DNA from: Nepenthes gracilis
Taxonomy: Eukaryota; Streptophyta; Magnoliopsida; Caryophyllales; Nepenthaceae
DNA length: 64,000 bases
NCBI GenBank assembly: GCA_033239525.1
Contig: BSYO01000030.1
Coordinates: 4,130,850-4,194,849, forward strand
Reading direction: 5' to 3'
Part shown: positions 9,298 to 53,465 of the stretch, piece by piece
Numbering within the stretch: the first letter of the stretch is position 1
Layout of the letters: each line of letters begins with the position of its first letter
Program-made: the position numbers and the translations under genes
Notes under the pieces: generated by a model
What the model saw: the letters and a program-made list of their open reading frames with translations, nothing else
What the model was told of the DNA's origin: nothing
Databases searched by the model: none

Positions 9298-12200
9298 TTG
9301 GTCTGTCATATTGCACCCTCCCCCATGACCCTTAATTTCTCTTTGGTCGTATCTACACCCACGAGGTCTTCTATTATGATTAATGTTTCCTACCCAGGGT
9401 GAGTTGTGGAAGTGAATGGGATAGCTTTTGTTGTTGATTTGATCCTCCTGGATATGCATGATTTTGATGTCATTTTAGGCATGTATTGGTTGTCTAAATA
9501 TCATGCAACTATTGACTGCTTCCACGAGAGGGTGGACTTTGCCATCTCAAAATGTGAACCTTTTCATGTTTGGGGGGTTCGGAGAGTAGAGGCATCTAGT
9601 TTTATTTCAACTCTCCAAGCCTGCCATTTGTTGAAGAGCAGGTGTGAAGCCTTTCTGGCTTACGCTAATATGATGGAGAGTCGGGAGTTGTCTGTGAACG
9701 ACATTCCGGTTATGTGCGAGTTCGAAGATGTGTTTTCTGACAAGTTGTCTGCTTTACCGCCACACCGTGAAATTGAGTTTGGGATTGATCTTATGCCAGG
9801 ATCGGCACCTATGTCAATGACTCCCTATCGTATAGCTCCTGCTGAGCTGAAGGAGTTGAAATAGCAGTTGTAGGATTTGCTCGATATGGATTTTATTAGA
9901 CCCAATGTTTCGCTGTGGGGTGTTCCAGTCCTATTTGTTAAGAAAAAGGATGAGACCTTGAGGTTGTGCATAGACTATCGTGAGATGAACAAGATCATGA
10001 TTAAGAACAAGCATCCGTTGCCACAGATTGATAATCTCTTCGATCAGTTATAGGGGACCCGAGTGTTCTCTAAAATTGATCTTCAGTCCGAATATCATCA
10101 GCTTCGCATCAAGCAGGAAGATGTAGCAAAGACGGCTTTCTGGACAAGGTATGGTCATTACGAATTCCTTGTGATGCCATTCGGATTGACTAATGCACTA
10201 GCCATGTTTATGGATCTGATGAATCGGACCTTCCAGCCACACTTTGATAACTTTGTCATGGTTTTCATCGACGACATCTTGATTTATTCCAAGGATTGTA
10301 CCGAGCATGAAGGGTACTTGAGAATCGTGCTTCAGACCCTTTGGGAGCATCAGTTGTTCGCAAAGTTGAGGAAGTGTGAGTTTTGGCTCAATGAGGTAAT
10401 ATTCTTGGGCCACGTCATTTCTAATGGAGGCGTCTCGGTGAACCTGAAGAAAGTTGAGGCAGTGATTAGTTGGAGTCGACCCACGACCGTGTCGGAGATC
10501 CAAAGCTTCTTGGGGATGGTCGGGTACTACCACCGTTTTGTGGAGAATTCCTCTCGAATTGCTTTACTTTTCACTCGTTTGACGAAGAAAGAAGCGAGCT
10601 TTGATTGGACCAAAGAGTGTAACAGAAGTTTCCAAGAGTTGAAGGATCGGTTGATGTCTACTTCGATTTTCACTCTTCCTAATAATTTTGGTGGGTTTGA
10701 GGTGTATTGTGATGCCTTTAAGGTGGGGCTCAGTTGTGTCCTCATGCAGAATGGAAAGGTGGTTGCATATGGGTCTCGGTAGTTGAAGACCCACAAGAAG
10801 AACTACCCGACCCATGATTTGGAGTTAACCATCATGGTTTTTGCGTTGAATATTTAAAGGCACTATTTGTATGGCGAGAAATTTCTAGTGTACTCTGACC
10901 ACAAAAGCCTTAAGTATTTGTTTTCACAGAAGGAGCTGAATATGAGGCAGTGGTGATGGATGGAGTTCCTCAAGGATTATGATTGTGAGATCCAGTATCG
11001 GCTGAGGAAAGCAAATGTGGTTGCAAATGCTCTGAGTCGCCAAACTTGTTTGGTCGCGACGATGCAGATTAAGCAAATGGAGATATTGGACTGTCTGCAG
11101 TCTTGTCACATTCAGCGCTATGTTAGAGCAATAGGATAATATTATCCTTTTTGTAGGTGCAGCCTGAGATCCTCCAAAGGATCAAGGAATGGCAAGTCAA
11201 TGACCCGTTTTTATGGACATTGTTAGCGACCACGGTAGAGATTCCTGAGTTGACTTTAATGTACGTGCAAATGGGATTCTGAGATTCTGGAAGCGGTTTT
11301 GTATATCAGATGATAAGGCTTTGAAGGAAGAGATCATGAAAGAGGCTCATAGGACTCAGTACACAATTCACCCCGAAATAAACAAGATGTACCAGGACTT
11401 GAAGAAAATGTTCTGGTGGATGAACATGTGGAGGGGGATTGTTGCCTTTGTGGGTCAATGTCTTATCTATCATTAGCTGAAGGCTGAAAGGAGGAAGCCT
11501 TTTGGATTACTGTAGCCCTTGCCTGTCCCCAGTTGAAAGTGGGAAGACATTTCGATGGGTTTTGTATCTGGGTTGCCTAGGACTCTTAAAAACCATGATG
11601 CAATCTAGGTCATTGTGGATCGACTGACAAAATATGCCCAATTTATAGCCATTTGGACTACGTATTCCCATGATCGTCTGGCACAGCTGTACATCAGCGA
11701 GGTCGTTAGGTTCCACGGTGTGCCAGCATCTATTGTGTCCAATCATGATCCACAGTTCATCTCTAAATATTAGGAGGGCTTGCATCGAGAATTAAGGACA
11801 AATTTGAAATTTAGTATGGCTTACTATCCTTAGATTGATGGTCAGTTTGAGCAGACGATTTAGATATTGGAGGATATGTTTAGAGTTTCGGTGATGGAGA
11901 TGAGAGGTATTTGGAATGATCATCTAGTGTTGGCCAAGTTTGCCTACAATAATAGATTCCAAGTAAGCATCGATATGGCTCCCTTCGAGGCACTTTATGG
12001 TAGGAAGTACCGATCACCCATCCATTGGGAGAAGATGGGGGATAGACATTTGCTGGGTCCTGATGTAATTCGAGAAATATCGAAAAAGATTACGGTGGTT
12101 TTTGAGAAGCTGAAGGTCGCCTAGTGTCGACAGAAGAGTTACGTCGATCGGAGGAGATCCGAGCTCAGATTCGAGGTTGGAGATTTTGCCTTTCTCAAGG

Positions 12201-12662: not shown

Positions 12663-15600
12663 TGTTAGGTTTCGGTTCCAAAGCATTATAATTAGAAGAT
12701 AATTAAAATGATAATAATCAAAATTAGGCTTAAAATGTAGAAAAAATTAAGATCGAAAGTAAAATAGATGGATTTGTGCTAGGTGCCTGATGACTGCCCA
12801 AGGCGCCACCCGAACGCAAATAGCAGAACCTCGATGCCCAAGGGATGCCCGAGGCGAGGCTCGAGTGGATATAATAGAAGGGTCATGCTAGATGGCCGCT
12901 CGAGCGCCGGCTGGGTGCGTTTGGCAGAATGCCTCACTCAAAGTGTGGTCGACGAGTGTTCAAATCGCGGCGTTGGCAAAAGGGTCCACCTGATTACTGC
13001 CCGACTGGCGCTCAAACGCCAGTCAGGGTATTTAAACGTGCTAGGGTTCATTTCTTGTCATTTTTTCAGCCTTTCTGATTTTTATAGAGAGAGAGCACAG
13101 ACCAAGAGAGAGAAAGGATGAGATTGAAGCCTTAGAGCCCAAATCTGTCTAAGAGCTAGTTTGAAAGGTTATAAATCGGATCAAGGCAAGTGCTCTCATA
13201 CCCTTTTTATCCTCTTTTTTTTATTTTTACTCGTTTTTCTTCGAGTATTGTCATCCCAGTACCCACCCACATCATCAGAAATATGGTACCCCTGACCCTA
13301 GTATAATTTATTTATCATTTGGTACCCGATTGTCCCCGATTTGGTCGGTTTGGCTTTCCCAAACCCTCACCTGCGACCCGCTCAAGTTTTCCCCTTACCC
13401 TTCAAATATTATGCTCATTTGTCATCAATTTATGAATTATCATGTCCTAGTTATGTACATATATTGACCGGACATTTGATCTCACAAGTATCGACCCGTT
13501 TGTGGTGTCTGGAAACTCTAAAAACGTCATTGGCACTGTTCACGCGAGACCAATGAGAATTTTGCAAGTTTTTACCCTATCTAATGGTTATGAAATTTAT
13601 GTCTAATTGTATATGTCTAATTGAAAGCCTCGAGAAAATGTATTTGTGATCCGTTGTAAAGGAAATGTGTCCCGAAGGCCCCCAAAGTGATAATTGTCAA
13701 ATGGTGGTAAGGAATTCTAATCCTTCCTTTGTATTATGATACTCATGCATCCAATTAACTCATGAAAAGACTTAAATCTAAAGGAAAGATAATAATCATA
13801 CATGCAATTGGAGGAAAATCCACAATGTGATTATATGATCGAATTATTCTCTTGGATGGAGATATTATGAATTAAATAGTGGTGGACCTTCCCTCAAATG
13901 AATAAGAAACCGTAAAATTAGGACCACGGAATTGTGTTATAGAGGTAATACCCCTTAGCCTGCCATTAGGATTACAATAGAGACTCAAGAATTACTCTGA
14001 CTGCTTATCGTAGCTGATGATACTATTGGCAAGCCTTAGGATATTACTGTAGAAGGACGATGACTGCCTCTAGACCACAGGAGGTTAGGATAGTGTTTTA
14101 TCGGTCCTATATAACAGGATGATAGGCATACCGTTATACCACGTGGTGATCGGCCTGTTGATAGGCATTATATATGAATGGCCCCTCCTCTGGGTTGATA
14201 ATAAGAGCTCACAGCCTTAGGTCATGTGGAGTATCATGATCTTTTCTCGTTCTCCCGCACCTTTAGTTAGTAATGCTTACTAACCTTAGTCCACAAAGAC
14301 GAATAACTATACATGAAATATATCCCAAAAAGAAGTAAATGATATTTCAAAGCATATTCAAACACGTTCCTGCTTATTCATCCCTTTCATAATTATATGT
14401 CCATCATTTGCTTAGCTTTGTCTATATTGTCTATTTCTTTTTATTATGATACACTTTTTTTTTGGTAAGTAATTAAGATTAGATTAAATTAAAACAAAAT
14501 ATACAAAACTCTATTCTAACTCCAAATATTTTACCGACTTAGAGTTAAAATAAAGCCACTAGGGTATACCCCGAGCACACCATGAAAGAAACATGAAAAA
14601 AAGGAAAGCAGGTACATAAAGAAAAAACACACGGCTAAGCCATCAGTCTTCAAGCCCAACAGAAGCCTCATTACTGAAGACTGCACCAGAGCACTCTTCC
14701 ATCCTCTAAGTCACAAACATTGTCAAACTGCCCATCATCGGGAACGTGTGAGAGAAGGACCGGTGTGCCCATCGTAGTCAATCTTCCACGTCAAACATAA
14801 CCGGCAGCCAAAACAGGGCTAAGCAAAAATAACGATCTGGCCTTCAGTCTCAACAAGAAAAAGCAAACTGGAATTGAAACTACCCAATCCTGGAACGTGA
14901 GAGAAGGACCCGTGTGTCCAGCATAGCCAGCCGTCCACGTCAGCCAAAGCTGGCAGCCACACAGCCTTCGTGTATCAGCCAGAAAACGCATACCTGCCGC
15001 CAAGAGGATCGGGAGCATTTGAGTGAAGGATCCATACAGCCCAAAAAAACCGCTACATCCAAGTCAGCAAACATCCCATTCCGAGATAATGTGACGATCC
15101 GTTCCAGAAACCCACCCACCAACTAGCATCTTCAGCAACATCCTCATCAAAGCAATAAAGCAAACTTCACCAGATGACTTTTAGGCGTTCGTCCACGTCA
15201 GCTAGGCCTGAGAGTTGCAGAACCCTTACTTCTTCTTTCTTCCACATGAGCACATTATTTTGTCTTACAAGTCCGAGTGGGCCGTAGCGCAAGATAGGTA
15301 GTTGATACTGATTGGAGAGCTCTTGAGGACTTAGTTTTATGATTTTGTACGAAACATGGATATGGAACTATTTGTTTTGATACTTATGATTATGCATGAT
15401 AATGATGATGAATGTGTAGTTTAGCTTTCCACTGTATATGATGGATGCAGTAGCTTCCGCGAGTTTTTTTATGGTTATAATTGGTTTCCTAGTTGGTATC
15501 CTTTCTGAACCGATGTTGTACAGGAATTATAACGCCGGTGCCACCTGTGTTGTTTTGGTGGCTTAGGGATCCTATGTATTTGTGTAGTGTTTATTTATGA

Positions 15601-17719: not shown

Positions 17720-17736
17720 TTGTACCATAAGAAAAA
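17720..17736 (+). repeat. left TSD of the ORF1-only LINE
   Basis: ttgtaccataagaaaaa recurs with one mismatch (g to a) right after the poly(A) at 29,525-29,541. Both copies lie within the copia remnant. Confidence 0.8.
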
Positions 17737-17868
17737 CAGATGTTTCTTCGAGAATCAAGCAGAACGAACTGCTAGAGAGAGAAGCTCTCCATTCTCTCTA
17801 CTTTCAAATTTCAAAATTAGAATTTGAACTGCGTCTCTTGGCTGTCTCTGGCGTCACCAGTGCCGGCA

Positions 17869-19929
17869 TGGTCGGCCCTCTGCTGGCGTTGTTGATCCTC
17901 CCCAAGGCCTCCTCCCTTTCTCCGTCCCCTAACCTTTCTTAACCGTCATCGGTTTCGTCTGCAACCGCACTCCTCTCTCCCTCCTTCCCTCCTCTGCACA
18001 GGAGCGCCTTGCTCTCGTCCCCAGGGCCCGATGCCTCCTTCTTAGAGCGCCTGAAGCCCTTGGACCTTCGCAACCCCCTCATATTGCCGTCTCCTTCTCC
18101 CCTTGTTTCATGTGAAGAGAGTGCTGAACGGAGTCTAATCGAGGCGCATTTTGGAGGCGCTGATGCCAAATGCAAAACCACTGCCGATACTGAAAATGTG
18201 CCAAACCCTCCACAGATCATATCAGATGCGGCTCCTATAATGCCCCCGTCCTCCTGGGTTGATATCGTCCAGAACAAGGGAGCTTGCCCTTGTCCTTCCC
18301 TCAAATTTTATCCCCCTCCATCTTTCGATGGGGATGTTGTCTCCATTTCTCCTCCTACCGAGGTTATCAAGCAAAGCTAGGAAGTATGGAGTGCTACGCT
18401 TGTGGGTTTCTTCTCCGAAACCCTTTTACATTTTCTGGCGGTTAACTCCATTGCCGGCAAAATTTGGGCGAGATTTGGAATCAATCATGTAGCTGCGAAC
18501 GAAGATGGTTTCTTCTTCTTCCGTTTTGCATCTGAAAAACAATTGAACCTCTGCCTTTCTACAAGCCCCTGGACATTTTGCAAGAAACCCATCTTCCTCA
18601 AACGATGGCAGCCTGGAATGGAGTTGTCTAAAGACACTCACCAATCTTTTCCAATCTGGATTTCTCTGTTCAATGTTCCAATCGAGTTCTGGACCCTGTT
18701 CGGCCTTAGCTGGACAGCCAGGGGGGTTGGCAAACCCCTTTACCTAGACCCGTGTACAGCCCGTATGGATCGAATGCACTTTGCAAGGATCTGTGTCGAA
18801 GTGAGTAAAATGGTTCCTCTTCCTTCAAAAATCAGAATTAAATCTGATGATAATGAAACGGCCAAGGATGTCGTTGTTGTGGTTGATTATCAGTGGAAGC
18901 CGATGCAGCATGGAAAAGGTCACCCTGCTAACCAAAAGAGCACCAGTAAAAGTAACAATGCCCATCAGGTTGTTGCACCTAAGAACTTAACCCCTGATGT
19001 TGTTTCGGCACAGAGTGGATATCCCTTCTCTTTGGATGACCACCATGCTGACGAAGCTGTGACCTCTACTGAACCAGGGGCTTCCAATGCTAACAATAAG
19101 GCGCCTGTGGATACTCTGAAGCGGGCCCCTGATGTCGACGGAGCTGAGGATGGGACTTCCATCCTGGTTTCCCTTTCTGCAAACGTTGGCTTTGATTCGA
19201 TCTCTCCTAAGGCGAATGTGGAATATCTGGTGAATTCTGCGCCAGCCTCTGGGATGTCTGGTGGTTTGGTGGAGCATTCCCTAGTATCGGACATGAATAT
19301 TTCGACTCAGGAGGTCACCTGCTCTGCCTCTGGTGATAAATCTACCAGCGGGTCTGGACCTGCTTCAAAGTCCCACCCTACTATTGCGGATGCTTCGACT
19401 GCTCCGGGTACTGTGTGTTCAGCTACAAGTTCAATAGGTATGCAGAACGAAACAATGACCTTGATTAAGTCGTTTCAGAGTGAAGGTATCCCAATTAGTC
19501 CTTCTACTAAGAGGAAACCTCACACCCTCTCCTCGCAGCCTGCTGATGATGATAATGCTATTCTTGGTCAGCTTATGCCTGGTGGTGGTGTTTTGGCTCT
19601 TGAAGGAATAGATTGTTCTCAGCATTCCAGTGGAAGTGAGCAGCAATTTGGCTTCTGTCAGACTACCCCTGCTTACTCCCCAATGGTTGCTGCTAACATT
19701 CCGTTTGAAGCCGTTTGTGAATTGGAATCTGCTCCCGGTCCTCTCGTTGTCCCTGCTGATCAACTTGCTTTGGACCCGGATATTGAGTTAGATCTAGATC
19801 TTACACCTGACTCTATCTCCTGGAATCTCAGAAATACTCCTTGGATGGCAAAGGCCATAGTGGGATTGACTCTGGTTGCCATGGAAATTCTTTGGATACT
19901 GATTGTGAAGGTCGGGTGCAGGAAGTTCC
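17869..19929 (+). pseudogene. LINE ORF1, DUF4283-type, first part
   Basis: Plant LINE ORF1 proteins are RNA-binding chaperone-like proteins that coat the LINE RNA. From about 18,381 the frame shows VWSATLVGFF, ANEDGFFFFRFASE, PWTFCKKPIFLKRWQPGM, PIWISLFNVPIEFW and ARICVEVS. This is the DUF4283 fold and its following basic segment. A long Ser/Thr/Pro-rich, low-order region then runs to about 19,830. In-frame stops lie at 17,940 and 18,378. The start is uncertain; the ATG at 17,869 is a candidate. Near 19,845 a frameshift moves the natural frame to one that reads into the distal part. The zinc knuckle found in some relatives is not visible. It is cut at 19,929 by element C. Confidence 0.8.
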
Positions 19930-22672
19930 TGTGAGGTTTCGAATTTAAGAATTCGATATTAATGAGGTAATTAGGATGATAATGATTTATATTAATCTAT
20001 GGAGGGATTAAGGTTTGGTATCGGAAGAAAAATCGGGAAAGAAATCGGGTCCGGGCTACGAAGCCCTCGCCAAAGAAGCCGGCGCTTCTTGGCGCTCGAG
20101 CCGTGGCTCGAGCGGTGGCTAACCCGTGGCTGGCCGCTGCTGGCCGCTCGAGAGCCGCTCGAGCGGCCCGAGCATTATATATCGTGCCGAGCCTTCTCTC
20201 TCCCTCATTTTTTTCAACCCGAGGGTTTTGAGGAGAGAGAGAGCGGCGCGACTAGAGAGAGAAGGAAGGAGATCGAGCAGAGTCCGATTCCGTCCGAGAG
20301 CCAGTATAAAGGTGAAAGCACGCGTCGAGGCAAGTGTTCTCATACCCACTTCTCGTTCTCTTTCGTTGTTTTATGTATTTTCGTTGGGTATTTTGTGTCG
20401 ATACCCACGGGGAATGTTAGAATATCGATACCCATGCCTTGAGGTCCGAGAAAATGTAGTTAGTTGTCCGAACCGGGTCCGATTCGCCCGGGTGATTTGC
20501 GCCGGAACCCTAACCTACGGGATTTTGGGGGTTTCCCGTTTCCCGGCCCCGTATCATGAAATTGACCCCAAAATTGGAAAGCCCACGTCCCAATGATGAA
20601 TATAAGTCGGCCGCGGGTCCGATCTCGCACGTTTGGACCCGTTCGCGGCGTCCGAGCCCAAAAAAGGGGCGCTGTTACTGTTCACCCGAGACCGGAGGTG
20701 GATTTTGCGTGTTTCCACCTTCGTGAGATGATGAAAGAACTCTAGAATATGAATCCCGGTATTCCAATTGTGTATATATATCGACCGGATGCCGAATCTT
20801 GCAAGATTTGACCCGTTCGTGGCATCCGGGAGCCTTGATAGTTTCCCGTTGTTGATAATCCGAAAATAAATGGGAAGTTGTGTACTTCCACCCTCGTGAC
20901 AAGTAAATCGAACCCCAATTGTGTAATCCTGTGTACAAGATGTACGAACGAATCCACCGGACGTCCGATTTCCAAGTATCGAACCGTGTACGGCGTCCGG
21001 GTGTTCAAAGAGAAATCCGATAATGTTTATCCAAAATGAGACGAAATCAAAGATGAAATGTGATCCTAATTGTAATGAAAGAACGTTTAAATGATTAAAC
21101 GTAAAAGTAAGAACCCGAATGTGAATCCGGTGTGCGGAGGTTCCAAAGTGAGATGTGATCATCTCGAGGTATGAGATCTGGTTTCTCTTGTGAACTTGGG
21201 TTGATTGTTGTGAATAAGGGAATGAAGTCCCGCATATTGTGATTAAAGGAATTGAGTCCCTTTGGTGATTGTGAACCGTGATGTGATCGGAAGGAGTCCA
21301 CATTGTGCTTGTGATGATATAATCTCACGGATGGAGATGTGATTGATGATGTAATCTCCCGGTTGGAGATGATTATGATGGGAATGAGGTTTCCCGAGAT
21401 ATGATTGTGTGGCAAATGTGGATTTCCCTCTCCAAGTGTCGAACCTAACCACGAAACTAGGACCACGAGTCATATGGGTAGTATTCTTTGGCGTACCATG
21501 TCCATCGTGGTGGGAACCCGAGGGATACTTGCCCACGTATTCCGGCCGCTCGTGTGAGCGGGTGATGTCTCGTGGGTACGCTTTAGGAAACTACCGTGTG
21601 GAAGGACGAGGATTGCCACGACCCCGGGGGTGTGGGGTGTGTCGACACTACATATTGAGATGTAGTTGTCGGTGATGATTGTTGCATGGATGCAACCGAG
21701 GGGTCGTGTGCTACCGGCCAAAGTAGTAGCCGTGGCTTTAGAATGTGTGCGAACACATTCTGTTCTCGTTCTCTCGCATCGTTGGTTAGTACGATCTACT
21801 AGCCGGGGTCCACAAAGATGATATAATAATGAAAATGAATAATGTCCAATCGATGAACCCGTGAATCAAGTGATTCGAAACAGAACCATGAACTGTAATG
21901 AGAATCTTGTGAATCCAAATGATGAACCGAATGAAACCAGTGATTCAAGATGAAACCGTGAGAACTGTAGGAATCGAGTGATTCCAGTTGCTTCTTATTC
22001 CCTGACCTGTTCCTTGATTGGAGAGTGCTTGTATTCCCTCCGGTTTCCGTCCTTGTACATGTCTTGGAGGGGTGATTATGATTACATTTGCTGAGCTGTT
22101 GGCTCACTCTTGCTATTGTTGTCTCTTTTTCAGATGAGAACACTTAGGTCAGCGCGGTGTAGATAGAGCAAGGAGAGAGACTTGCTTGATATGACCGGCT
22201 GGACGGCGCGTGATCAGAAGATTTGGGCATAGAGTTGGATCGGACTGTGGACAGCCACTCAGTGTTGGGCGTGGCTCGTTATAGTTAATGTTTTATGGTT
22301 TTATTATGCTTCCGCAGATATATGATGACTTAGTTATGCTTCCGCGTCTGTATTTATGTTTTGAGTTTGGTTTCATACTAGATGGCATCTCTCTAGATCC
22401 AAAAGATCGTAGGTTGTGTATCATTTGGAGCCATGGATGATATGGCGGTGTTGTTGATCTGTGTGGCGTGTTGTAGGCTTTGAGTTAAGCCTTTGGATTA
22501 GATGCGTGCTTGTATAGAATGGTATTTAAGCAGGTTGTATTTCGGTTTTCGTCCAGTTGCAGAGGAAACTCTGCCGGATTTTCTGTAGAGTCTATAGCAT
22601 TAATTATGGGCTCTAGGGTGTGTTTAGACATTGACGGAGGTTATTCAATGGAGAATAATCCGTTCCGTCACA
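19930..22672 (+). repeat. left LTR of element C
   Basis: The sequence is near-identical to 25,735-28,459 apart from transitions at CG/CHG-like sites and many length differences in short G or C runs. It contains a CTCGAG-rich palindromic block, a TATA box, a CT/AG-rich leader, a telo-box-like aaccctaac, three closely spaced hairpins (21,648-21,760) and the ggctcactc block shared with other Tekay LTRs. A 249-codon reverse frame inside (20,554-21,303) is broken in the right LTR and is not called a gene. Confidence 0.92.
20175..20182 (+). promoter_or_regulatory. TATA box of element C left LTR
   Basis: tatatat lies 12 bp after the last of four CTCGAG words (20,094-20,163) and just before the agccttctctctcc leader. 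Confidence 0.6.
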
Positions 22673-22674
22673 GT

Positions 22675-22686
22675 TGGTATCAGAGA
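22675..22686 (+). promoter_or_regulatory. primer binding site of element C
   Basis: tggtatcagaga, complementary to the 3' end of initiator methionine tRNA, lies two bases after the LTR end. Confidence 0.88.
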
Positions 22687-25600
22687 ATAAGAGAGATGCC
22701 TAGGTTTGATCTGAATAATATGCGGAAGCTTAGGTTTGATTAAGATTGATTGTTTTCGCCAATGAAGGTAGGTGAGGACTAAGTTAGTCCGGGTAGTTTT
22801 GGTTACCCCGATCCCAGAACTTAGGCTAGTACTAAGTTAGAAGCGGTGACTTAGTTCGGATGTCTAGCCTATACGTCCTAGATTGTGTTCTAGGATTGGC
22901 TTGACCCGAATTGTTTCGAACTCGCCGAAAGTATTAGTAGTGGCTCCTTGTTGGGGACTACTAATACTAGTGACTGGTTATAGGTCGAGAGAAAGAATGG
23001 TGTGTTGAGACACCTAAGTAATCGAATTTGACTAGTATCGATTGGGACCTTGGACCGATCAGGGTTGATTCGAGGCCTAAGTTGATTAATCTCAGTTTGA
23101 GGTTTAAGTTTGATCGGTTCTTGGTTGAAGTCCTTGGATTAGTATTTTGCTTCGAAGGGTTGTCAGGTCAATCTAGAGAGCGTGATGAATTGGGTGGAGT
23201 TAAGTTTGGGCATATGAAGCTCTAGGTTGGAAATTCATGAAGTGTCTAGACTTGTGGGCAGTCTAGATCCTTAAGATTGAGATGTGGATTTTGAGGTTGA
23301 AGATATCGTTGTGGTGACCCCATGTCTGATAGAAGACACGGCGTGTTGCCCCAGAATGGATAGGAAGTGAAGTCGACCTCGGGTGGTTGACGTGAGAAAG
23401 ATCTTGGGTCTCGAGGATTAAGAAATATGGTCCCATGCATTATGGAAGCTTCTTGAATTGATTACGTATCGATGAGACTCTTGGTAGTGTGTCTCAATTG
23501 TGGACAAATCCCATCGCGAGATCTAAGGATGTCTTTAGTCACGGACGTGCGGTGAGAAGGGTCGATATTTATATCGGATCCTATGATATGAACCCAAGTG
23601 TTAATGTCGCTTTGTCGTGGCGGGAGGAGAGCTTCTTGGGTTTAATATTGCGATCGATGTTGTTTTGAACCATGTTGGGATTGTGGTTGAGATTGTGTAA
23701 TCGGGAGAATCTAGACTTGGCAAAGATGTCAAGGGCGACTTAGTATTCGGAAGGGCAAAGGAAATATGGCAGCAGCTATTCATGGATGAATCTTGGATGA
23801 ATGCCTTTCAAGAGATTTTGGAAACTAGGATCTAAGTTATAGATAGTACGGGTGTTGGATTGAGAATGGTTGTATCCTCTGATCTTGGAATGAAGAAATC
23901 CAGCACCGTAGGATCGCAGTTCGGCGGTGATGGTGCATGCGAGAAATTTGTGGATTGCCGAGGTTGGGAGATGAAATTTCCCAGCGTGATGTCACAAAGA
24001 CTTGCATCTTGGGGGACCACGAGTATGTTTATGGTTTTGTGATTCCAGGGGTTAAGGATCCAAGTTTGTTGCAAGTGGTATCGAGGTTGTGATATTTTTG
24101 GAGTTCGTGGATACGATCTGGGGGTTAACTTGAATCGTCTTGCGATGCCAATCTTGTTGTGATGTTTAAAGGTTTCGGTCAGTAAGTTATCGAGTCAATC
24201 TGAATTAGGTTGATGTATCCGTTGGTCAAGTATTCAAGGTTATGTCAAAAATTGACGCCGATTGTTGAGGATTCCAGCGGAGAGGAGATATCGGTTTGCA
24301 TCGTGTGAAGTGCTTGAGAACATTCGAGGTAAATAAGATGGACCGATCGGGTTGTTCGTGAATTTTGGAATGGGGTTGCCTAGGAGATTGATGGTTTGAT
24401 AACCAGATTTCGTGAATGGACAGCATAGTTTGTGGGCCGTCGTGAAGACTTGATGAATTCTAAGATCGATCTGGGTCCGTAACGGGACATTTGTGGATCA
24501 ATAGGAGTTGTAGCCCTGACGGTATCCGGGTCAAGCATACGGTCACTGTAAAGTCTAGAAAACGCCGTTTGGGTCTTGTAGGATCGATGGCGTTTCACGA
24601 AGCTTTATGAGATGATCTTTCGACCACGTCTGGGTCGATGTTGAAGTAGCTTCATGTGATAATCAGGGAATTTCAAGGATATCAATGGTGTGTGCAATCA
24701 TCTTTGATCTAATTGGATAGGGTGATTGATGTTCGTGACATTGGGTTGACCCCTAATGGGTCCGATGAGTTCTCGTGGAAAGTAATATCTTTGAGATAAG
24801 TGGGGGAGGAGTTCGGATTAGTGTTACCCCCACGAGTATGTCGTAAATTGGCCATTGAAGTTTTCTTTTGAAAACTCAAGAATATTGTCTTCGGAGATAG
24901 GAAGATGATCATATGGTCTTGCTTGTGGTCTGGTTTGTTTATAATTTGAGAAATGAACATCGGTGTTTCCCTTGGATCAATAGGCATCAATGTTGGAAAT
25001 TGATGCTACGAATCTTGACGTGTATGTCTTTGGAGTTTTATAGGTAATGTAAAAGATGAATTGCTAGTAAGTCCCGATGATTGGGTGTTAGAGTGTCGTG
25101 TTCTTGTTGGGATCTAGAACCGTACTTGGTTTTGGTTCGGTTGGCTTGTCGATATGCCAACAGGTTCTTGAGGTTACTAGACAATCGGAATTTTGAGAAT
25201 CCTGGGTATTGATCGGAAATCCTGTCAACTCTTTGGGTGACCGGGATTATTATAATTTTGAACGTGGCTTAATTGGTTGATTTGAGGATTGATCAGAGTG
25301 CGCAGAGTAAGCGTTGTGGGCCCGTGGCCCAGAGATTTCTAAATAAGCGTTGTGGGCCCGTGGCCCAGAGATTTCTAAATAAGTTTGAGGTTCCAGTGAT
25401 CGATCTCTTTCGAGGTTCCAGTGATCCGATTGAAGTGTCGGATTGAGTTGGGAAATGTCCGGCATGATTTTAGGCGGCTTTTGGAATATCTAGAAATCGA
25501 TCTAAGGTTTTCCTAGCACCTATGGTCGGGAGAATCGATAATTTTACGAATTGAGCCGTTGGGTGAGGCCGAAAGATTTGTTTTGTGATGAGGACGAGCG

Positions 25601-25721
25601 ATTCAATGCTTGAGGTTTCTAAACTAGGCATTGTTTGAGGAAATGAATATGGTATTTGAGTAGAGTTCTCCTCGAGTTTGGGAAATTGAGGCTCGTTAAA
25701 TTTCGGGGACGAAATTTTAAT
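22687..25721 (+). other. noncoding interior of element C
   Basis: About 3.0 kb of mostly unique-looking sequence without retroviral motifs in any frame. Visible structure: a perfect 12-bp inverted repeat with a 15-base loop 245 bp after the primer site (22,930-22,968), a 36-bp unit in perfect tandem duplicate (25,308-25,379), and a gaggttccagtgat word twice (25,386 and 25,413). The first 70 bp resemble element B's leader. Origin of the rest is unknown; it could be decayed gag-pol or captured DNA. Confidence 0.7.
25308..25379 (+). repeat. 36-bp perfect tandem duplication
   Basis: Two identical copies of a unit starting taagcgttgtgggcccgtgg (25,308-25,343 and 25,344-25,379). Each contains the small inverted repeat gggcc/ggccc. 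Confidence 0.95.
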
Positions 25722-25734
25722 AAGTGGGGAGAAT
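25722..25734 (+). promoter_or_regulatory. polypurine tract of element C
   Basis: aagtggggagaat directly precedes the right LTR and follows ttcggggacgaaatttt, the usual pre-PPT block of Tekay-type elements. Confidence 0.88.
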
Positions 25735-28459
25735 TGTGAGGTTTGAATTTAAGAATTCGATATTAATGAGGTAATTAGGATGATAATGATTTATATTAAT
25801 CCTATGGAGGGATTAAGGTTTGGTATCGGAAGAAAAATCGGAAAGAAATCGGTCCGGCTACTGAAGCCACAAGAAGGCGCTCGCCGGGCGCTCGAGCCGT
25901 GGGCTCGAGCGGTGGCTAACCCGTGGCTGGCCCGGCCGCTCGAGCCGCTCGAGCGGCCCGAGCATTATATATCCGTCTGAGCCTTCTCTCTCCCTCATTT
26001 TTTCGCAACCCGAGGGTTTTGAGGAGAGAGAGAGCGGCGCGACTAGAGAGAGAAGGAAGGAGATCGAGCCCGAGAGTCCAATTCCGTCTCGAGAGCCGTA
26101 TAAAGGTGAAAGCACGCGTCGAGGCAAGTGTTCTCATACCCACTTCTGTTCTCTTTCGTTGTTTTATGTATTTTCGTTGGGTATTTTGTGTCGATACCCA
26201 CGGGAATGTTAGAATATCGATACCCATGCCTTGAGGTCCGAGAAAATGTAGTTAGTTGTCCGAACTGGTCCGATTCGCCGGTGATTTGCGCTGGAACCCT
26301 AACCTACGGGATTTTGGGGTTTCCGTTTCCCGCCCCGTATCATGAAATTGACCCCAAAATTGGAAAGCCCACGTCCCAATGATGAATATAAGTCGGCCGC
26401 GGGTCCGATCTCGCACGTTTGGACCCGTTCGCGGCGTCCGAGCCCAAAAAAGGGGCGCTGTTACTGTTCACCCGAGACCGGAGGTGGATTTTGCGTGTTT
26501 CCACCTTCGTGAGATGATGAAAGAACTCTAGAATATGAATCCCGGTATTCCAATTGTGTATATATATCGACCGGATGCCGAATCTTGCAAGATTTGACCC
26601 GTTCGTGGCATCCGGGAGCCTTGATAGTTTCCGTTGTTGATAATCCGAAAATAAATGGGAAGTTGTGTACTTCCACCCTCGTGACAAGTAAATCGAACCC
26701 CAATTGTGTAATCCACCGTACAAGATGTACGAACGAATCCACCGGACGTCCGATTTCCAAGTATCGAACCGTGTACGGCGTCCGGGTGTTCAAAGAGAAA
26801 TCCGATAATGTTTATCCAAAATGAGACGAGAAATCAAAGATGAAATGTGATCCTAATTGTAATGAAAGAACGTTTAAATGATTAAACGTAAAAGTAAGAA
26901 CCCGAATGTGAATCCGTGTGCCGGAGGTTCCAAAGTGAGATGTGATCATCTGAGGTATGAGATCTGGTTTCTCTTGTGAACTTGGGTTGATTGTTGTGAA
27001 TAAGGGAATGAAGTCCCGCATATTGTGATTAAAGGAATTGAGTCCCTTTGGTGATTGTGAACCGTGATGTGATCGGAAGGGAGTCCACATTGTGCTTGTG
27101 ATGATATAATCTCCTGGATGGAGATGTGATTGATGATGTAATCTCCCGATTGGAGATGATTATGATGGGAATGAGGTTTCCCGAGATATGATTGTGTGGC
27201 AAATGTGGATTTCCCTCTCCAAGTGTCGAACCTAACCCTGAAACTAGGACCCTGAGTCATATGGGTAGTATTCTTTGGCGTACCATGTCCATCGTGGTGG
27301 GAACCCGAGGGATACTTGGCCACGTATTCCGGCCGCTCGTGTGAGCGGGTGATGTCTGTGGTACGCTTTAGGAAACTACTGTGGAAGGACGAGGATTGCC
27401 CTGGACCCCGGGGGTGTGGGGTGTGTCGACACTACATATTGAGATGTAGTTGTCAGTGATGATTGTTGCATGGATGCAACCGAGGGTCGTGTGCTACCGA
27501 CCGAAAGTAGTAGCCGTGGCTTTAGAATGTGTAGCGAACACATTCCCCGTTCTCGTTCTCTTCTCGCATCGTTGGTTAGTACGATCTACTAGCGGGGTCC
27601 ACAAAGATGATATAATAATGAAAATGAATAATGTCCAATCGATGAACCCGTGAATCAAGTGATTCAAATGAACCATGAACCGTAATGAGAATCTTGTGAA
27701 TCCAAATGATGAACCGAATGAAACCAAAGTGATTCAAGATGAAACCGTGAGAACCGTAGGAATCGAGTGATTCCGGTTGCTTCTTATTCCCCGACTTGTT
27801 CCTTGATTGGAGAGTGCTTGTATTCCCTCCGGTTTAGTCCTTGTACATGTCTTGGAGGGGTGATTATGATTACATTTGCCGAGCCGTTGGCTCACTCTTG
27901 CTATTGTTGTCTCTTTTTCGATGAGAACACTTAGTCAAGCAGCGGAGATAGAGCAAGGAGAGAGACTTGCTTGATATGACCGGGCCGGACGGCGCGTGAT
28001 CGAGAAGATTTGGGCATAGAGTTGGATCGGGTCGTGGACAGCCACTCGGTGTTGGGCGTGGCTCGTTATAGTTAATGTTTTATGGTTTTATTATGCTTCC
28101 CTTGATATATGATGACTTAGTTATGCTTCCGCGTCTGTATTTATGTTTTGAGTTTGGTTTCATACTAGATGGCATCTCTCTAGATCCAAGATCGTAGGTT
28201 GTGTACTTGTCTTGGAGCCATGGATGATATGGCGGTGTTGTTGATCTGTGTGGCGTGTTGTAGGCTTTGAGTTAAGCCTTTGGATTAGATGCGTGCTTGT
28301 ATAGAATGATATTTAAGCGAGTTGTATTTCGGTTTTCGTCCAGATTGCAGAGAGGAAACTCTGCGGATTTTCCAGAGTCTATAGCATTAATTATGGGCTC
28401 TAGGGTGTGTTTAGACATTGACGGAGGTTATTCAATGGAGAATAATCCGTTCCGTCACA
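25735..28459 (+). repeat. right LTR of element C
   Basis: Same features as the left LTR: four CTCGAG words, TATA at 25,965-25,972, telo-box-like motif near 26,297, hairpins near 27,440-27,545. It ends ccgtcaca followed by gttcc. High similarity to the left LTR indicates a fairly recent insertion relative to the other LTR elements except the 39,364 chromovirus. Confidence 0.92.
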
Positions 28460-28464
28460 GTTCC

Positions 28465-28615
28465 CATGTGTAAGGTGCCGCAAACATCTTGTCGTACCTT
28501 TCGAGAGATGGTTGCCACGGAACACAAAGCCTGGAAGAAGGCTAGGGCCAGTAGACGTAGAAATTCTGCTTCCCGAAAACCGAAAGACACTTCTGGTTCC
28601 AATGCCTTCTCTTAA
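28465..28615 (+). pseudogene. LINE ORF1, C-terminal part after element C
   Basis: Resumes directly after the second gttcc and reads MCKVPQTSCRTFREMV, then a basic KAWKKARASRRRNSASRK tail and a stop at 28,613-28,615. The basic end fits a nucleic-acid-binding ORF1 terminus. The frame agrees with the upstream frame that would apply after the frameshift near 19,845, not with the longest upstream frame. Confidence 0.75.
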
Positions 28616-29514
28616 GTCGGCTGGCCGTGTGGGTTTGGGATGTGGATTGTGTGGAGGCCCTTTTAAGGATCTGTTGCATGAATTTTGATGGTCTGTTAGC
28701 CTATCTTGGCATGAGGATGAAGTCCTGTGGGAGTATGGGTGTTTGCTTCTGCCCCTGCTTTGGCTCATTGTTGCTGTTTTGTCTGTTGATTCGGATGCTA
28801 TACTCTTGGTATTCTGCTTTGGATGGTTAGCTGATTTGCTGCTTTGGATGGTTTGGATTTGCTGACGTGGACTCGTCGACGTGGCCCGTAATCCTTACTT
28901 TCCGGTTGTAAAACTGAAGGCCGAATGGTTCTTCTTGCTCGGGATGGTTTTAAAAGCCGCACTGGATTGCATCCAACGTGACATTGAATGGTTTATAGCT
29001 AATGTGGAGGCGGGGCCGGTTTCGACTGCTGACGTGGACTGCATATGTTAGCTGTAGTTTTGGAAGCGATTGCTTATACTTTGAGATGTGTATAATTGCC
29101 GTTGGGGAATACTGCCGGGTTGCATTAACTGTCGTGGAATTTTGGCCGGGTTGGCTTTCCTGACGTGGCCTAAGTTGAAATGCTACTAGATTTGCTGGTT
29201 CAGATTAGCTTCGTTGGGGGCGTCTCGTTGCGTCACAGTAGATTCTGGGGTGTGTACTTTTGCTGCTAGGCATTGCAGTTCCCCGTGTTCATGCTCGGTG
29301 ATGTGTTATTGGGCCGAGTTTTTTTGGCCAGTTTAGATGTTGCTCATCTAGTTGGTTTTTGTGTTGATGTTTCTTTCAATTTTATGACTTGGTTCATGGT
29401 GATGCTCGGGGAATGCCCTAACTTGGTGTTCTACCTCTAAGTCGATAAAACACTTGGAGTTAGAACATTTGTTTCGTACTTTTTTTTTAATTTAATGTCA
29501 TTTACTTACTTACC
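28616..29514 (+). other. 3' UTR of the ORF1-only LINE
   Basis: T/G-rich noncoding sequence with four copies of a gacgtgg word (28,864, 28,878, 29,031, 29,158). It is followed by the ggggaatgccc mini-hairpin (29,408-29,418) and the terminal stem-loop (29,435-29,459). It is similar by eye to 38,220-38,440 (the ggccg, tttttgtgtt and gatttggttca landmarks in order). Confidence 0.7.
29408..29466 (+). other. conserved 3'-terminal LINE RNA stem-loops (copy A)
   Basis: The DNA reads ctctaagt, a 9-base loop, then acttggag, with one t-g wobble in RNA. It is flanked by tgttcta and tagaaca, which also pair. A GGGGAATGCCC hairpin precedes it. Equivalent structures occur at 36,414-36,476, 37,381-37,447, 38,329-38,390 and, reversed, at about 14,500-14,575. 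In LINEs with a 3' hairpin this is where the reverse transcriptase recognises its RNA; the role here is inferred. Confidence 0.7.
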
Positions 29515-29524
29515 AAAAAAAAAA

Positions 29525-29700
29525 TTATACCATAAGAAAAAAAAATTCCCATTCATTAGATTACCCTTTGTTTTTATATTATAATATAAGGTCATTAGAG
29601 TTTTAAAAAAATTTTAGTCTGTTTATTTTGCAAATGTTATCAAAAAGGGTTCTCGAACAAAAAAAAGGTTTTGTCTTTGCATAAAATAATCCTTCTATTT
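29525..29700 (-). pseudogene. Ty1/copia pol remnant upstream of GAG-pre-integrase
   Basis: Starts with the right TSD of the LINE (29,525-29,541). The reverse strand reads IKTKGNLMNGNFFF leading directly into the LWYKRFGHL at 17,730 once the LINE is removed. Strongly decayed, A/T-rich; the upstream limit is arbitrary. Confidence 0.45.
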
Positions 29701-35292: not shown

Positions 35293-37499
35293 AGTGAGAA
35301 TAGTGTCACTCTGTTCTGTTGTGGCTCGGTGGTGGTTCCTATGCTGTTATGGAAGTAGCAGAAAAGTACATTGGGTTCAGGCTGCGGAGTCTATTTTCCT
35401 CCCCTTGGTGAAAATGATGCACGCTCCATTGGGCATTTTGAAATCTGATGATGCTGCCCAGACTGTATTTCATGGCCTTTGCTGTTTTCTGGATGATAAA
35501 CCCATGATGTGCTGGTGCTTTGTGAGGGAATGTTATGCTGCAGTACATTTGTGTGTATGATTGATGATGTTGTTGTCCCACATGTCCCTATATGGATCTT
35601 AAGTGGCAGGCTATATTGCAGCAGCTGGGGGGTTTCGTTAGTTTGCTGGATATAGCCACATATTTGTGTTCCTATTGCTGAGTTGGGTGGTCTCCGCCTG
35701 ATGGTGTTTATGAACCATTTGTTGAGGAATGCCTATTATCAGGCGGCTGATGTGGAGTTGCAACTTTTGGGCTGTGTGAGGTGGAAACCAGGACATGCTC
35801 TTTTGTCCTGTGTAGAGTGGTGTTGCATAAGCTGCATAGTTTTCTCAAATCTAATATGCTGAAGCTGTAGTCTGGTGCATGTATTACATGGTTTGTTAAT
35901 CTTAGAGATCGACAGACCTATTGGAAGATGCTGATGGAATTGTTGGTTTTTTTGGAGTACTGCTGTTGATGCTCAGATGATATACATGTGGGCTAGTGCC
36001 CTGCTGTATGGTGCTTCTGAAGCATGGGCAGTTGAATGGTGTTGAAGCTACTTTCAGTTTCTTAAAGTGCCTAAATGACCAATGTTGTTGCTGCTGTGTG
36101 GCATTGAGTTGGTGCTGGTATATTTGATGCCAGAGCCCCTTTCTTTTGCTGATTATGGAATGGCTGTTGGGCTTTTTTGGTGCATTGGCAGTTTGCTGGC
36201 TGCTTCCAAATGGTGTCTTCTTGTATAATGGGCAGTGCTCCGGATGCACAGCAGTGAACTGCCCAGGAGTTGTTTGCGTTGCACCGCAAGATGCTATTGT
36301 TTGATGATTGTATGTCTGCTTATGTGTAACTTCAGATTATATATGTTGTTTTTTTTCTGTTGAACGTAGTCCTCTTAGAGGCTTGTTAGGTATTATATAT
36401 TGTACATTTTGCTCGGGGATATGCCTAACTTTTTATGTTTTAAATCCAAGTCAAAATACTTGGAGATAAAACATAAATTTTATAATTTTTTCTCCCTATA
36501 ATCCAAAATACTTACTTACCAAAAAAAAAAGCATGTATTACATGGTTGCTGATTTATCTTCATCAGAGATGCTGATTATAAAGCAGAGACTTCAGGCTGA
36601 TACTGAGCATGCTTGATTCTGTACCGCTGTTTTTTCTTGCTCCCCAATCATCAAGTGAGATGGTGGAATCAGGCTGTTGCTCATTAGCTGGGTCCAGCTC
36701 TCATGTCCACGAAGCTGCAATATCCGGTTACTGGCGTTGAAGTTGCTGCAGAGGATCGGTAATGCAGGTGCCAACAGTAAGGCTCAGGGATTTCTACTGC
36801 CCAGTAGGTAGCTGGTCGTGTAGTGCTGTAGCAAAATTTTGCTGAATGTTATGCCCACAGTCCAGCTGGCGATGGGGGCTTTTGCAATGGGCCTGCTGGA
36901 CGTGGTGGTGCAGTAGGAGTGAATGAGATGCTGCCCATGCTTGTGCATTCTGCTGCAGTTTCTGTTGCATCTGATGTTTTGATTATAGTGCTCTGCTGTT
37001 GCTGTTTCTCTGTATGTTGTGCACATGGCTGTTGGCTTGTAGGCCTGGAATGCTGGTTCCCATGATTCAGTCATGATGCTTGTGGCAAATGTGATGGAGA
37101 TGTTGATTGTGCACGTGCCTGCTGTCACTTGGATGATCTGGAATTTGGACCGTTTATTGGGCTGGTAGAATGCTAAGGGATTAGCTGCTGTGGCTGAGGA
37201 TCAACTTTGCTGGTCTCCAGCAATACTGATAATTTGCCTTAGCTGACTCGAAATAGTAGATCATCTGTCAGACCGTGTGTAACATTAGACAGATTTAATA
37301 TTTTGTTGAACATTGTCCTCCCGGAGGACCCCTTTGTTGTGTCTCTTTTTTTGTGTGTGTATTTTGATGTACTAACTGCTCGGGGAATGCCCTAACATTT
37401 TATGCTTTAACTCCAAGTCAAAATACTTGGATTTAATGCATAAGCTATGTAATCTTTTTTCCCTTTAATCCAAAATACTTACTTACCAAAAAAAAAAAA
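35293..37499 (+). mobile_element. LINE 3' UTR copy C (interrupted by copy B)
   Basis: T/G-rich noncoding sequence with many gctgttg-like words, ending in the paired ctccaagt/acttgga stem (37,411-37,431) with ttatgc/tgcataa outer stem, acttacttacc and poly(A) (37,488-37,499). The 5' limit is unclear; it may be the 3' UTR of the 33,137 LINE. Confidence 0.65.
35893..36530 (+). mobile_element. 5'-truncated LINE copy B nested in copy C
   Basis: 638 bp flanked by a 16-bp direct repeat gcatgtattacatggt (35,877-35,892 and 36,531-36,546). It ends in acttacttacc plus ten A. It contains only 3' UTR with the terminal stem (tccaagt/acttgga, 36,445-36,463) and an 11-bp outer stem tttatgtttta/taaaacataaa. 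Confidence 0.88.
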
Positions 37500-38449
37500 G
37501 TCTAATGCCATATGGGATGATGCTGAATTTTTGCACTGATGAAACAGCTTCTGGTTCCTGGAGGCTAGACTTGACCTTGTTGAGAAGCTGGGCTGAGGTG
37601 CTGGCGTTGTTGGTTGTCAGCCCTGTGCATTTTGTTTATTCTCATGTCCCTGCTAGCTGGGCCACATCTTTGTATTGTTGATGCTGGAGAAGTTGCTCTG
37701 TCTGTCATCCCAGCTTCCTTCTCTGGTGGATGCGAGAAGGCTGGAAAGTGGACTGGCATCACTTTGTTGCGTTAGAATGCATGACTAATGCCATGTGGGA
37801 TGATGCTGAATTTTTGCACTGAAGAAGGTATTATTTGTTAACCCATATTGCAACTGCTGCTGTTGTTGCTGGGTTTGGAAATTGATGCTACGAGTTTGCT
37901 ACTTCCGGCTCTTAGTGACTAGATGCTGCTAGAAAGCATCTAATCCCACTATGATGTTGGGCTGTGTCCCAGATGGGGTTGGAGTTACAGTCCGTTTTTC
38001 TTTGATATGGCACAGTTATGCATAGTTGAAACTGGGAGGATACAGGCTCTCTGCTGGTGTCTAAATTCCACCGGAGGGCCTGTGCTGTGATGATGGTTGA
38101 GTGCCGGTATTGTGCTGGCGGTGGACTTGGCACTGCCCTGTTGATTAGGTGTTGTTGCCTGCCGAGAGGTCTCCATTGGTTCATGAGCGGGTGGAGGCAA
38201 CGTTCCCCTTTGCTGTTGTTGTTTTTTTTGTCTTTTGTCTAGTATTTGGGCCGGTTTGGCCGGATGTGATGTTTTTCATCTTGTAGTTTTTGTGTTTTCT
38301 TTAACCTTGATTTGGTTCAGGGTGGTGCTCGGGGAATTCCCTAACTTGTTTTTATAACTCCAAGTCGGCAAAACACTTGGAATTAGAACAATGTTTTTTG
38401 TACCTTTACTTTCTGTTAATTTCATTTTACTTACTTACCAAAAAAAAAA
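37500..38449 (+). mobile_element. LINE 3' UTR copy D
   Basis: Noncoding, T/G-rich, ending with the ggggaattccc mini-hairpin (38,331-38,341), the ctccaagt/acttgga stem (38,358-38,381), acttacttacc and poly(A) (38,440-38,449). A 38-bp block occurs twice (37,502-37,539 and 37,785-37,822, one mismatch). No TSD recognised. Confidence 0.65.
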
Positions 38450-38458
38450 TTATTGATT

Positions 38459-39363: not shown

Positions 39364-39942
39364 TGATGCGTGCTGAGCTCTGTTTTGGACCGAGGTGAGC
39401 TGCTTCAGGATCGCCGAGGTGAGTTGCTACAGTGACGCCGAGGTTTAAGATACCGAGGTGTGGAATATCACCTCGGTTGTTTAACTGGAATACAGAAAAC
39501 ACAGCAGAGAACACAGCAGAAAGAGAAGCAGAACAGAGAAGGAGTTCGGCCGAAGGAGGAGAAAATCAGATTGAGAGGGAAGAAGTGAAGACAGGAGAAG
39601 AGAATAATCTTTTCTTACCTTCTGTATTCTCACTAAGCCCATTTAAGGGATGCAGAAGCACACATAAGCAACAGAAATGGGAAATAACAGAATCACATGG
39701 CCAGAAAACAGAATGAGAAAAACAGAATTCCACATGTGGTGTGTGCGATAACAACGACCATGCAAAATTAATAAAAATCCCTAAATTTGGAGGGAAGTCG
39801 GATTTGGCGGGAGCTACGACGGTTATCTGCTGGGCGAAGTGAAGTTATGGTTGTAACTGCTGTATCCGTGTCCCCATCTTCCACCATTGGTTGTGCCTCC
39901 ACTGGCTGTGCTGTTGGGCGCTGAGAAATTAGACCCGTAACA
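39364..39942 (-). repeat. 3' LTR of chromovirus F
   Basis: 579 bp, tgatgc to gtaaca on the plus strand. On the minus strand the pol frame runs through the PPT and about 55 codons into this LTR, ending RLPSKFRDFY. Confidence 0.95.
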
Positions 39943-40433
39943 TTACCGTCCCCATCAAAAATAACCTTATCCTCAAGGTTGAAATCTGAAAATTCTTGGT
40001 TAAACCCAGTAATTGATTCCCAGGTTGCCTCCTCCGGGGTCTGGCCCGTCCATTGAACAAGAAGTTGTGGAACCAGCTTCCCAAGATGTAGGATCTTACG
40101 AAAACCGAGCAGTTTGGCAGGGGTGATCAATGGTTTGGATCCTAAACTGTCGGAAGGCAGGGCCACGCAGTGGGCATTTGGGTCACCGTGGCACTGCTTG
40201 AGCAAGGAAATGTGGAAAACGTTATGGATTTTTGAGTACTCAGGTAATTGTAGGCGGTAAGCTACTGGACCAATGCGCTCAAGAACGCGGAAAGGCCCGT
40301 AATTCCGCTTAGCCAGCTTATGGGAACGACGATTAGCAACGGTGAGTTGTCGGTATGGTTGTAGTTTGACGTAGACCCAATCATCTACCTGGAATTCTCG
40401 GTCCGTGCGGTGCGCGTCCGCTTGATGCTTCAT
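39768..40433 (-). pseudogene. chromovirus F integrase C-terminus and chromodomain
   Basis: Reads DREFQVDDWVYVKLQPYRQ, GPFRVLERIGPVAYRLQLP and HNVFHISLLKQC. The chromodomain follows (LVQWTGQTPEEATWES, then FNLEDKVIFDGDGNV) and a Pro/Gln/Ser tail inside the LTR. Chromodomains steer integration to particular chromatin. A frameshift at about 40,440 separates it from the integrase core upstream. The purine-rich codons of FDGDGN form the polypurine tract next to the LTR. Confidence 0.92.
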
Positions 40434-53108: not shown

Positions 53109-53139
53109 ATTGTGCGTAGTCCGCCATTAGTAGCGTACC

Positions 53140-53465
53140 TTGCCAAAAAATAAATAAATAAATTTTGCTACCATTTTTATTTTTATTTTCTTTTCTATTA
53201 TATTTCACCCTTTGTAACGTTCCTAGAGAGAAAAAAATTTGTATCCCTCCTCCTTTGCTTTTATTTTTTATTTTTGTTCACCCTTGTTTTTCTCTCTAAG
53301 AAAAAAAAAATTACTACAATTTTATTTTAATATCTACTATGTTTCACCCTTTGTAGCGTTCCTCGAAAAAAAAAAAAACTCTTATTTGTATCTTTCCTCC
53401 TTTGCTTTTGCTTTTTATTTTTGTTTCATCCCTATTTTGTCTCTCTCCAAAAAAAAAAAAAAAGC
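53140..53465 (+). repeat. LINE tail and ~130-bp tandem duplication with A runs
   Basis: ccaaaaaataaataaataaat (53,142-53,162) resembles a LINE tail. A unit with tttcaccctttgta, cgttcct, a run of A, cctcctttgct, tttttatttttgtt, tctctc and again a run of A appears at 53,206-53,318 and 53,340-53,465. Confidence 0.75.

Follow-up and report, generated by a model that had tools for sequence, protein, structure and literature searches.

A probable HAL1-like, ORF1-only LINE lineage in the genome of Nepenthes gracilis

We analysed a 64,000-nucleotide stretch of the Nepenthes gracilis genome (contig BSYO01000030.1, positions 4,130,850 to 4,194,849; hereafter the window) that contains, at 17737-29524, a derivative of a long interspersed nuclear element (LINE) with a first open reading frame (ORF1) and no second one. 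The element is best read as a degraded member of a half-LINE lineage that, like HAL1 of mammals, is non-autonomous, encodes its own ORF1 protein and borrows ORF2 in trans; we put the probability of this reading at roughly 0.8.

Structure, copies and two-ORF relative of the element

The window element has both ends of a LINE insertion, a 17-bp target-site duplication (TSD) with one mismatch (TTGTACCATAAGAAAAA/TTATACCATAAGAAAAA) and a poly(A) tail behind a 3' end common to many LINE copies of the genome, and between them lies an ORF1 of the DUF4283 type with its own stop codon, followed by the 3' untranslated region (3'UTR; Table 1). DUF4283 ORF1, poly(A) and TSD are traits of plant L1-clade LINEs; the ORF2 with endonuclease (EN) and reverse transcriptase (RT) that marks autonomous members of this clade is absent. 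ORF1 is split by a nested long terminal repeat (LTR) element with LTRs of ~2.7 kb and TG...CA ends, and the insert is absent from the corresponding site of the copies on contigs C24 and C20. The Kimura two-parameter distance is 0.016 between the two LTRs and ~0.08 pairwise among the three copies of the window's subfamily (subfamily A; 3' part), and the LTR insertion is therefore later than the half-LINE copies. A first-pass annotation of the window had described this layout, namely the two ends, the ORF1 stop with its 0.9-kb 3'UTR, the nested LTR element, and no trace of EN or RT; our searches bear it out.

Searches with tblastn (E 1e-5), using proteins of the window's own LINEs as queries, gave no match to EN, RT or zf-RVT inside 17737-29524, and in L009 and L010, two copies free of the LTR insert, none was found within the 3.9 kb that follow ORF1. 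As a positive control, the window-LINE queries detected EN and RT after ORF1 in a two-ORF relative, L020. A remnant of EN past the ORF1 stop was also sought. At the protein level all 20 scores (10 sequences, two queries) fell under the 95% level of shuffled sequences. At the nucleotide level, comparison with the start of the L020 EN gave scores above shuffles for the window (48, vs at most 40 in shuffles) and for L009 (46, vs at most 44), on different diagonals, and L022 was not above shuffles; scores to the 3'UTR of L020 in the same comparison were under the shuffle maxima. An EN remnant is unsupported.

A check for a junction unique to this locus, suggested in the first-pass annotation, was run, and the junction recurs. 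When the 752.5-Mb N. gracilis assembly was searched with the ORF1 end plus 3'UTR, end-to-end matches were obtained on C24 (90%) and C20 (89%), and the last 60% of the query alone matched at a second C20 place (87%). The 5' half matched at 92% on C24 and C20 and was contiguous with the 3' half at both; the ORF1-stop/3'UTR junction is common to the window, C24 and C20 copies at 89-92%. TSDs measure 17 bp in the window, just 9 bp in L009 (CATATGCAT), 16 bp in L010 and, with one mismatch, 15 bp in the 5'-truncated L011. More diverged copies also align to the window tail through the ORF1 stop, namely L031 (32-270), L035 (9-243), L041 (32-400), L022 (32-401), and L016 and L017 (5-354). L022 is a 5'-truncated insertion spanning the ORF1 stop (TSD 14 bp, one mismatch), and a second subfamily, B, is represented in complete form by L034 (15-bp TSD) and L035 (14 bp, one mismatch); the tail of L034, which has a different ORF1 C-terminus, is not alignable through the ORF1 stop. 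Altogether, distinct TSDs flank six insertions that extend from ORF1 into the tail (the shortest TSD measuring only 9 bp), and together with the poly(A) they mark independent retrotransposition events. L012 was rejected as a half-LINE, since its 3'UTR belongs to another insertion, which is 5'-truncated and has a 15-bp TSD to itself. L021b, in which a 3' end precedes the next EN, is a candidate half-LINE without a TSD, and L021 was used neither as an example nor as a clean control.

With the 5' half as query, the ORF1-only group occupied at least 40 places (40 of 664 candidates scored, split hits merged). Thirty-one of these were read after ORF1, 11 as longer stretches (window, L009, L010 and L029-L036) and 20 as 1-kb probes set at the expected position of EN and the RT linker, and none of the 31 showed a same-strand EN or RT core. 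The family 3' end was reached at 10 of them, unbroken in the window, L009, L010, L034 and L035 and across an unread gap of 0.5-1.0 kb at the places on C8, C6, C10, C36 and C16, for which no TSD was found. Homology to the ORF1 end, tail or 3' end was present in 13 of the 20 probes; L038 and L042 matched a second ORF1 domain, described below. Group elements measure ~3.1-3.7 kb, have a LINE-type 5' end, a DUF4283 ORF1 and a LINE-type 3' end, and form at least two subfamilies. A family of copies, and not a single locus, thus has ORF1 and lacks ORF2, and the shared junction, the six distinct TSDs and the absence of a same-strand EN or RT core from the 31 read places uphold the earlier proposal of a non-autonomous family.

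Two minor features of group members were recorded. The common 5' end (GCTAGAGAGAGAAGC) starts at ~17770-17773 in the window (CTAGAGAGAGAAGC), and differing leaders of ~5-38 nt separate it from the TSD in the window (17737-17772), L009, L034 and L035; upstream starts, 5' transduction or added bases are candidate explanations. Inside the half-LINE tail of L033 (contig C9), positions 2321-2365 hold a near tail-only LINE insertion in antisense (T14GGTAAGTAT) with an 11-bp direct repeat, TGTGCTCGCCC, on either side.

The two-ORF relative L020 (~C20:6825271-6835600) contains a DUF4283 ORF1, EN, RT, a 2.9-kb interruption and zf-RVT, and carries a CCHC knuckle (CESCKAFGHSKIHC) that is missing from the half-LINE ORF1. 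(A whole-genome search for zf-CCHC_4 returned one place, was too insensitive and was not used.) Alignment of the 5' end of L020 to that of the half-LINEs scores 54 (vs 39, the maximum of 200 shuffles), and a stretch 1.15 kb past its ORF2 stop is 66% identical to the window 3'UTR, the homology beginning at ~28851 of the window. A further locus, L014, is 88% identical to the 3'UTR of L020 and has an A-tract with a possible TSD at its end. Three plus-strand ACGTGG motifs upstream of the window-like part of L020 fit one single 3'UTR. In a tree of ORF1 sequences, subfamilies A and B together with L016 form a clade with a support of 99 (92 with L023b); L020 falls outside the A+B clade, its own position being weakly supported. 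L020 is likely to be the partner LINE.

Repeats of ACGTGG on the plus strand of the 3'UTR (28615-29515 in the window) number four in the window copy, two in L009, two in L010, and three and five in two parts of L020 (L020ext 9493-11315), where Markov means predict only 0.1-0.2; none were found in L034, L035, L022 or the ORF2-bearing LINE of the window.

ORF1 domains and selection on DUF4283

The DUF4283 part of ORF1 is predicted, with moderate confidence, to resemble the RNA-recognition motif (RRM), and may have the beta-alpha-beta-beta-alpha-beta core of that fold. A first structure model (predicted local distance difference test score, pLDDT, 42.5) was not used, and a profile search of solved structures gave no match. 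The window ORF1 is not intact: in L009 numbering, codons 25 and 171 are in-frame stops, and the frame is broken near codon 661. Stops recur at ORF1 codons 246, 275 and 282 in copies of different subfamilies; codons 275 and 282 are Trp in other copies, and their stops may reflect recurrent decay at TGG.

Between subfamilies A and B, the median ratio of nonsynonymous to synonymous substitution rates (dN/dS) for DUF4283 was 0.27 (0.19-0.42, 24 pairs), and 1.34 and 1.03 in shifted frames. The C-terminal half of ORF1 gave a median of 0.79 in frame and of 0.72 and 0.83 in shifted frames, and thus has no coding signal. For a cleaner test, L033 and L035 were compared with L030 and L031, copies that share a tail: the tail of L035 is common with L030 and L031 over most of its length (1374 and 1081 columns), and the first part of the L033 tail is common with both (795 columns). 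DUF4283 dN/dS in these four pairs, which are non-independent and in which each copy also includes neutral decay, was 0.22-0.37 in frame vs 0.64-1.07 out of frame. DUF4283 evolved under purifying selection between copies that already share the ORF1-only tail, and it is the only part of ORF1 found to have been kept functional during multiplication. The first-pass annotation had supposed that such a family supplies its own RNA-binding protein; indirect support for this comes from the selection on DUF4283 among ORF1-only copies and from the RRM-like model, itself of moderate confidence.

Some relatives carry a second conserved ORF1 domain. In L034, positions 1905-2483 (minus strand) form an open stretch of 193 codons after the C-terminal region of DUF4283, and ~130 residues of it recur, for example, in L015, L019, L021, L027, L029 and L036, and also in L038, L042, L044, L052 and L055, with a motif like FLDxCWCDxSxxTRDEFKSSFPL. 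In L036, DUF4283 and the second domain share a reading frame (574-2436) that is interrupted by just one stop, at 1021. Median pairwise dN/dS of the second domain was 0.51 (145 non-independent pairs) vs 0.97 and 1.01 in shifted frames. It had no Pfam or NCBIfam match, and comparison of the L034 domain with solved structures gave only E values of 1.6 or worse. The window's subfamily is without this domain; no match was found in the window, L020, L009, L010, L030, L031, L033 or L035.

Origin, mode of spread and relation to known elements

ORF2 was probably lost from a two-ORF plant L1-type LINE, once or several times. Translation of the half-LINE transcript would yield an RRM-like ORF1 protein, which would bind the RNA that encodes it, and the ORF2 protein of a complete LINE would reverse-transcribe that RNA in trans at the target site, recognizing the shared 3' end. 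We infer the borrowing of ORF2 because the group has LINE-type ends and a two-ORF relative, L020, with shared ends.

Several observations weigh against a half-LINE lineage mobilized in this way. The ORF1 tree includes a single two-ORF LINE from this genome, L020. Because L020 has no detectable TSD and an A21 tract follows its ORF2, the window-like 3'UTR is not proven to belong to it and may instead be a second truncated insertion. Nine of the 40 places were unread, save for a short stretch of one in L016, and 21 of the 31 read places were interrupted or not followed to the 3' end. Five of the 20 probes gave no useful homology (none in L045, L047, L048 and L053; antisense 3' end only in L054). 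Same-strand zf-RVT fragments lie 3.4 kb (L030) and 0.44 kb (L033) downstream, and an antisense RT comes after the shortened L032. In L019 and L021, which are not members of the group, pieces of ORF2 follow a DUF4283 ORF1 at a distance of 1.1-1.8 kb. All three subfamily-A copies contain stops, none having an open ORF1; ORF1 outside DUF4283 is little constrained in most pairs (dN/dS 0.43-2.22), and a McDonald-Kreitman-like test was not significant (p 0.28-1).

ORF2 may have been lost several times independently, as reported for HAL1, instead of once in an old half-LINE lineage, a possibility to be kept in mind although it is not the probable course. The tails of the subfamilies diverge some hundred bases past the ORF1 stop and their ORF1 C-termini differ, and HAL1s are reported to have several origins in mammals (PMC5753468); the alignment of A with part of B, however, continues past the ORF1 stop into the 3'UTR, and a single clade unites A, B, L016 and L023b.

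It is unlikely that the group consists of deletion derivatives spreading as passenger RNA, with an ORF1 that is idle in its own copying. The broken ORF1 of subfamily A, the median dN/dS of 0.72-0.83 for the C-half in every frame and the McDonald-Kreitman-like result would fit such a history, as would the existence of internally deleted LINE derivatives, the SIDEs of Lepidoptera (PMC6740152), but the in-frame constraint on DUF4283 between copies with a common ORF1-only tail argues against it. Speculative, too, is a largely split L1 machinery in Nepenthes, a two-part system in which an old, diverse ORF1-only group without zinc knuckle is served by ORF2 from separate elements. Its RRM-like proteins would in some members include the second in-frame domain, as in L036. 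The ORF2-bearing LINE of the window, in which no match to this ORF1 precedes EN, would fit the proposal but may simply be 5'-truncated, and, contrary to the proposal, L020 carries both ORFs.

Retrocopies of a domesticated host DUF4283 gene, arising like processed pseudogenes, are improbable. The public annotation does list hypothetical proteins for parts of the elements (P0002, P0004 and P0007; P0002 and P0004 are identical to ORF1 stretches in L035 and L033), and selection acts on the protein, but the elements have a 5' end related to the one of a two-ORF LINE and share their 3' end with many LINE-type insertions, which is not expected on a host mRNA. That ORF2 was simply deleted at this one locus, without any family of copies, can be dismissed, since the same junction occurs at C24 and C20 with other TSDs and alignments to diverged copies extend across the ORF1 stop.

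The closest known organization to that of the half-LINE group is HAL1, alike in working and not by descent. Mammalian L1 ORF1p is of the coiled-coil type. HAL1 (half-L1) is a non-autonomous mammalian L1 derivative encoding only ORF1p (PMC5753468), and the window group is likewise an ORF1-only, non-autonomous LINE derivative; it differs in its plant host, in its DUF4283-type ORF1 and in having no CCHC knuckle of the kind found in a two-ORF relative. HAL1 proper, by descent from mammalian L1, is ruled out by a DUF4283 ORF1 in a plant genome. Celine of poplar, a plant L1-clade LINE, shares the DUF4283 ORF1, TSD and poly(A) (PMC11288735), whereas the window element has no ORF2 (EN, RT) and a 3'UTR of ~0.9 kb vs 189 bp. 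L020 shares a related 5' end, the DUF4283 ORF1 and, if contiguous, the 3'UTR; EN, RT, zf-RVT and the CCHC knuckle are in L020 only. SIDEs are likewise short, internally deleted LINE derivatives with a partner LINE; the accessible part of their description mentions no SIDE-made protein (PMC6740152), whereas the half-LINE keeps an ORF part under selection. A short interspersed nuclear element (short, non-coding, with an RNA polymerase III promoter) was rejected, the element being ~3.25 kb long with an ORF partly under selection; polymerase III boxes were not searched for.

No plant half-LINE appeared among the papers listed in searches of the open-access literature, and none was named in the available parts of a plant transposable-element review and an Arabidopsis one. 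That a flowering plant, too, has elements that retain ORF1 and lost ORF2, although their ORF1 protein is of a different type and has a core under selection, suggests a repeatable strategy, and makes it testable whether an ORF1 protein helps its own RNA in cis even though ORF2 comes from elsewhere. Annotated 'hypothetical proteins' of plant genomes can be parts of half-LINEs.

Feature coordinates and other elements of the window

Table 1. Features of the ORF1-only element and its nested insertion (window coordinates)
Feature	Position	Strand	Remarks
5' target-site duplication	17720..17736	.	TTGTACCATAAGAAAAA
Half-LINE element, subfamily A, nested LTR element included	17737..29524	+	~3.25 kb without LTR element
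5' leader, 36 nt	17737..17772	+	absent from C24 copy
ORF1, 5' part	17868..19929	+	up to LTR insert
DUF4283 domain	18438..18797	+	P0001 residues 13-132; E=2.6e-28; predicted RRM-like; constrained among related copies
TSD of nested LTR element, left copy	19925..19929	.	GTTCC
Nested LTR element	19930..28459	+	later insertion; LTRs 19930-22672 and 25735-28459
TSD of nested LTR element, right copy	28460..28464	.	GTTCC
ORF1, C-terminal part	28465..28614	+	Lys/Arg-rich; includes stop TAA 28612-28614
3'UTR	28615..29514	+	~0.9 kb
Family 3' end	29302..29524	+	common to many LINE copies of the genome
Poly(A) tail	29515..29524	+	10 A (A10)
3' target-site duplication	29525..29541	.	TTATACCATAAGAAAAA

The internal region of the nested LTR element is ~3 kb long, with no ORF of at least 100 amino acids listed, and a possible primer-binding site, GTTGGTATCAGAG, follows its left LTR. 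Elsewhere in the window, an ORF2-bearing LINE at 49511-54257 has EN-like, RT and zf-RVT domains and a 1.1-kb 3'UTR full of A-runs; no match to the half-LINE ORF1 was found upstream of its EN (from 49.5 kb), and it may be 5'-truncated. Further copies of the LINE 3' end lie at 36410-36530, 37377-37497, 38255-38453, 14433-14586 and 54188-54258, three of them spaced ~0.9 kb apart. The minus strand of 39768-44432 encodes Ty3-type gag, protease, RT and integrase domains.
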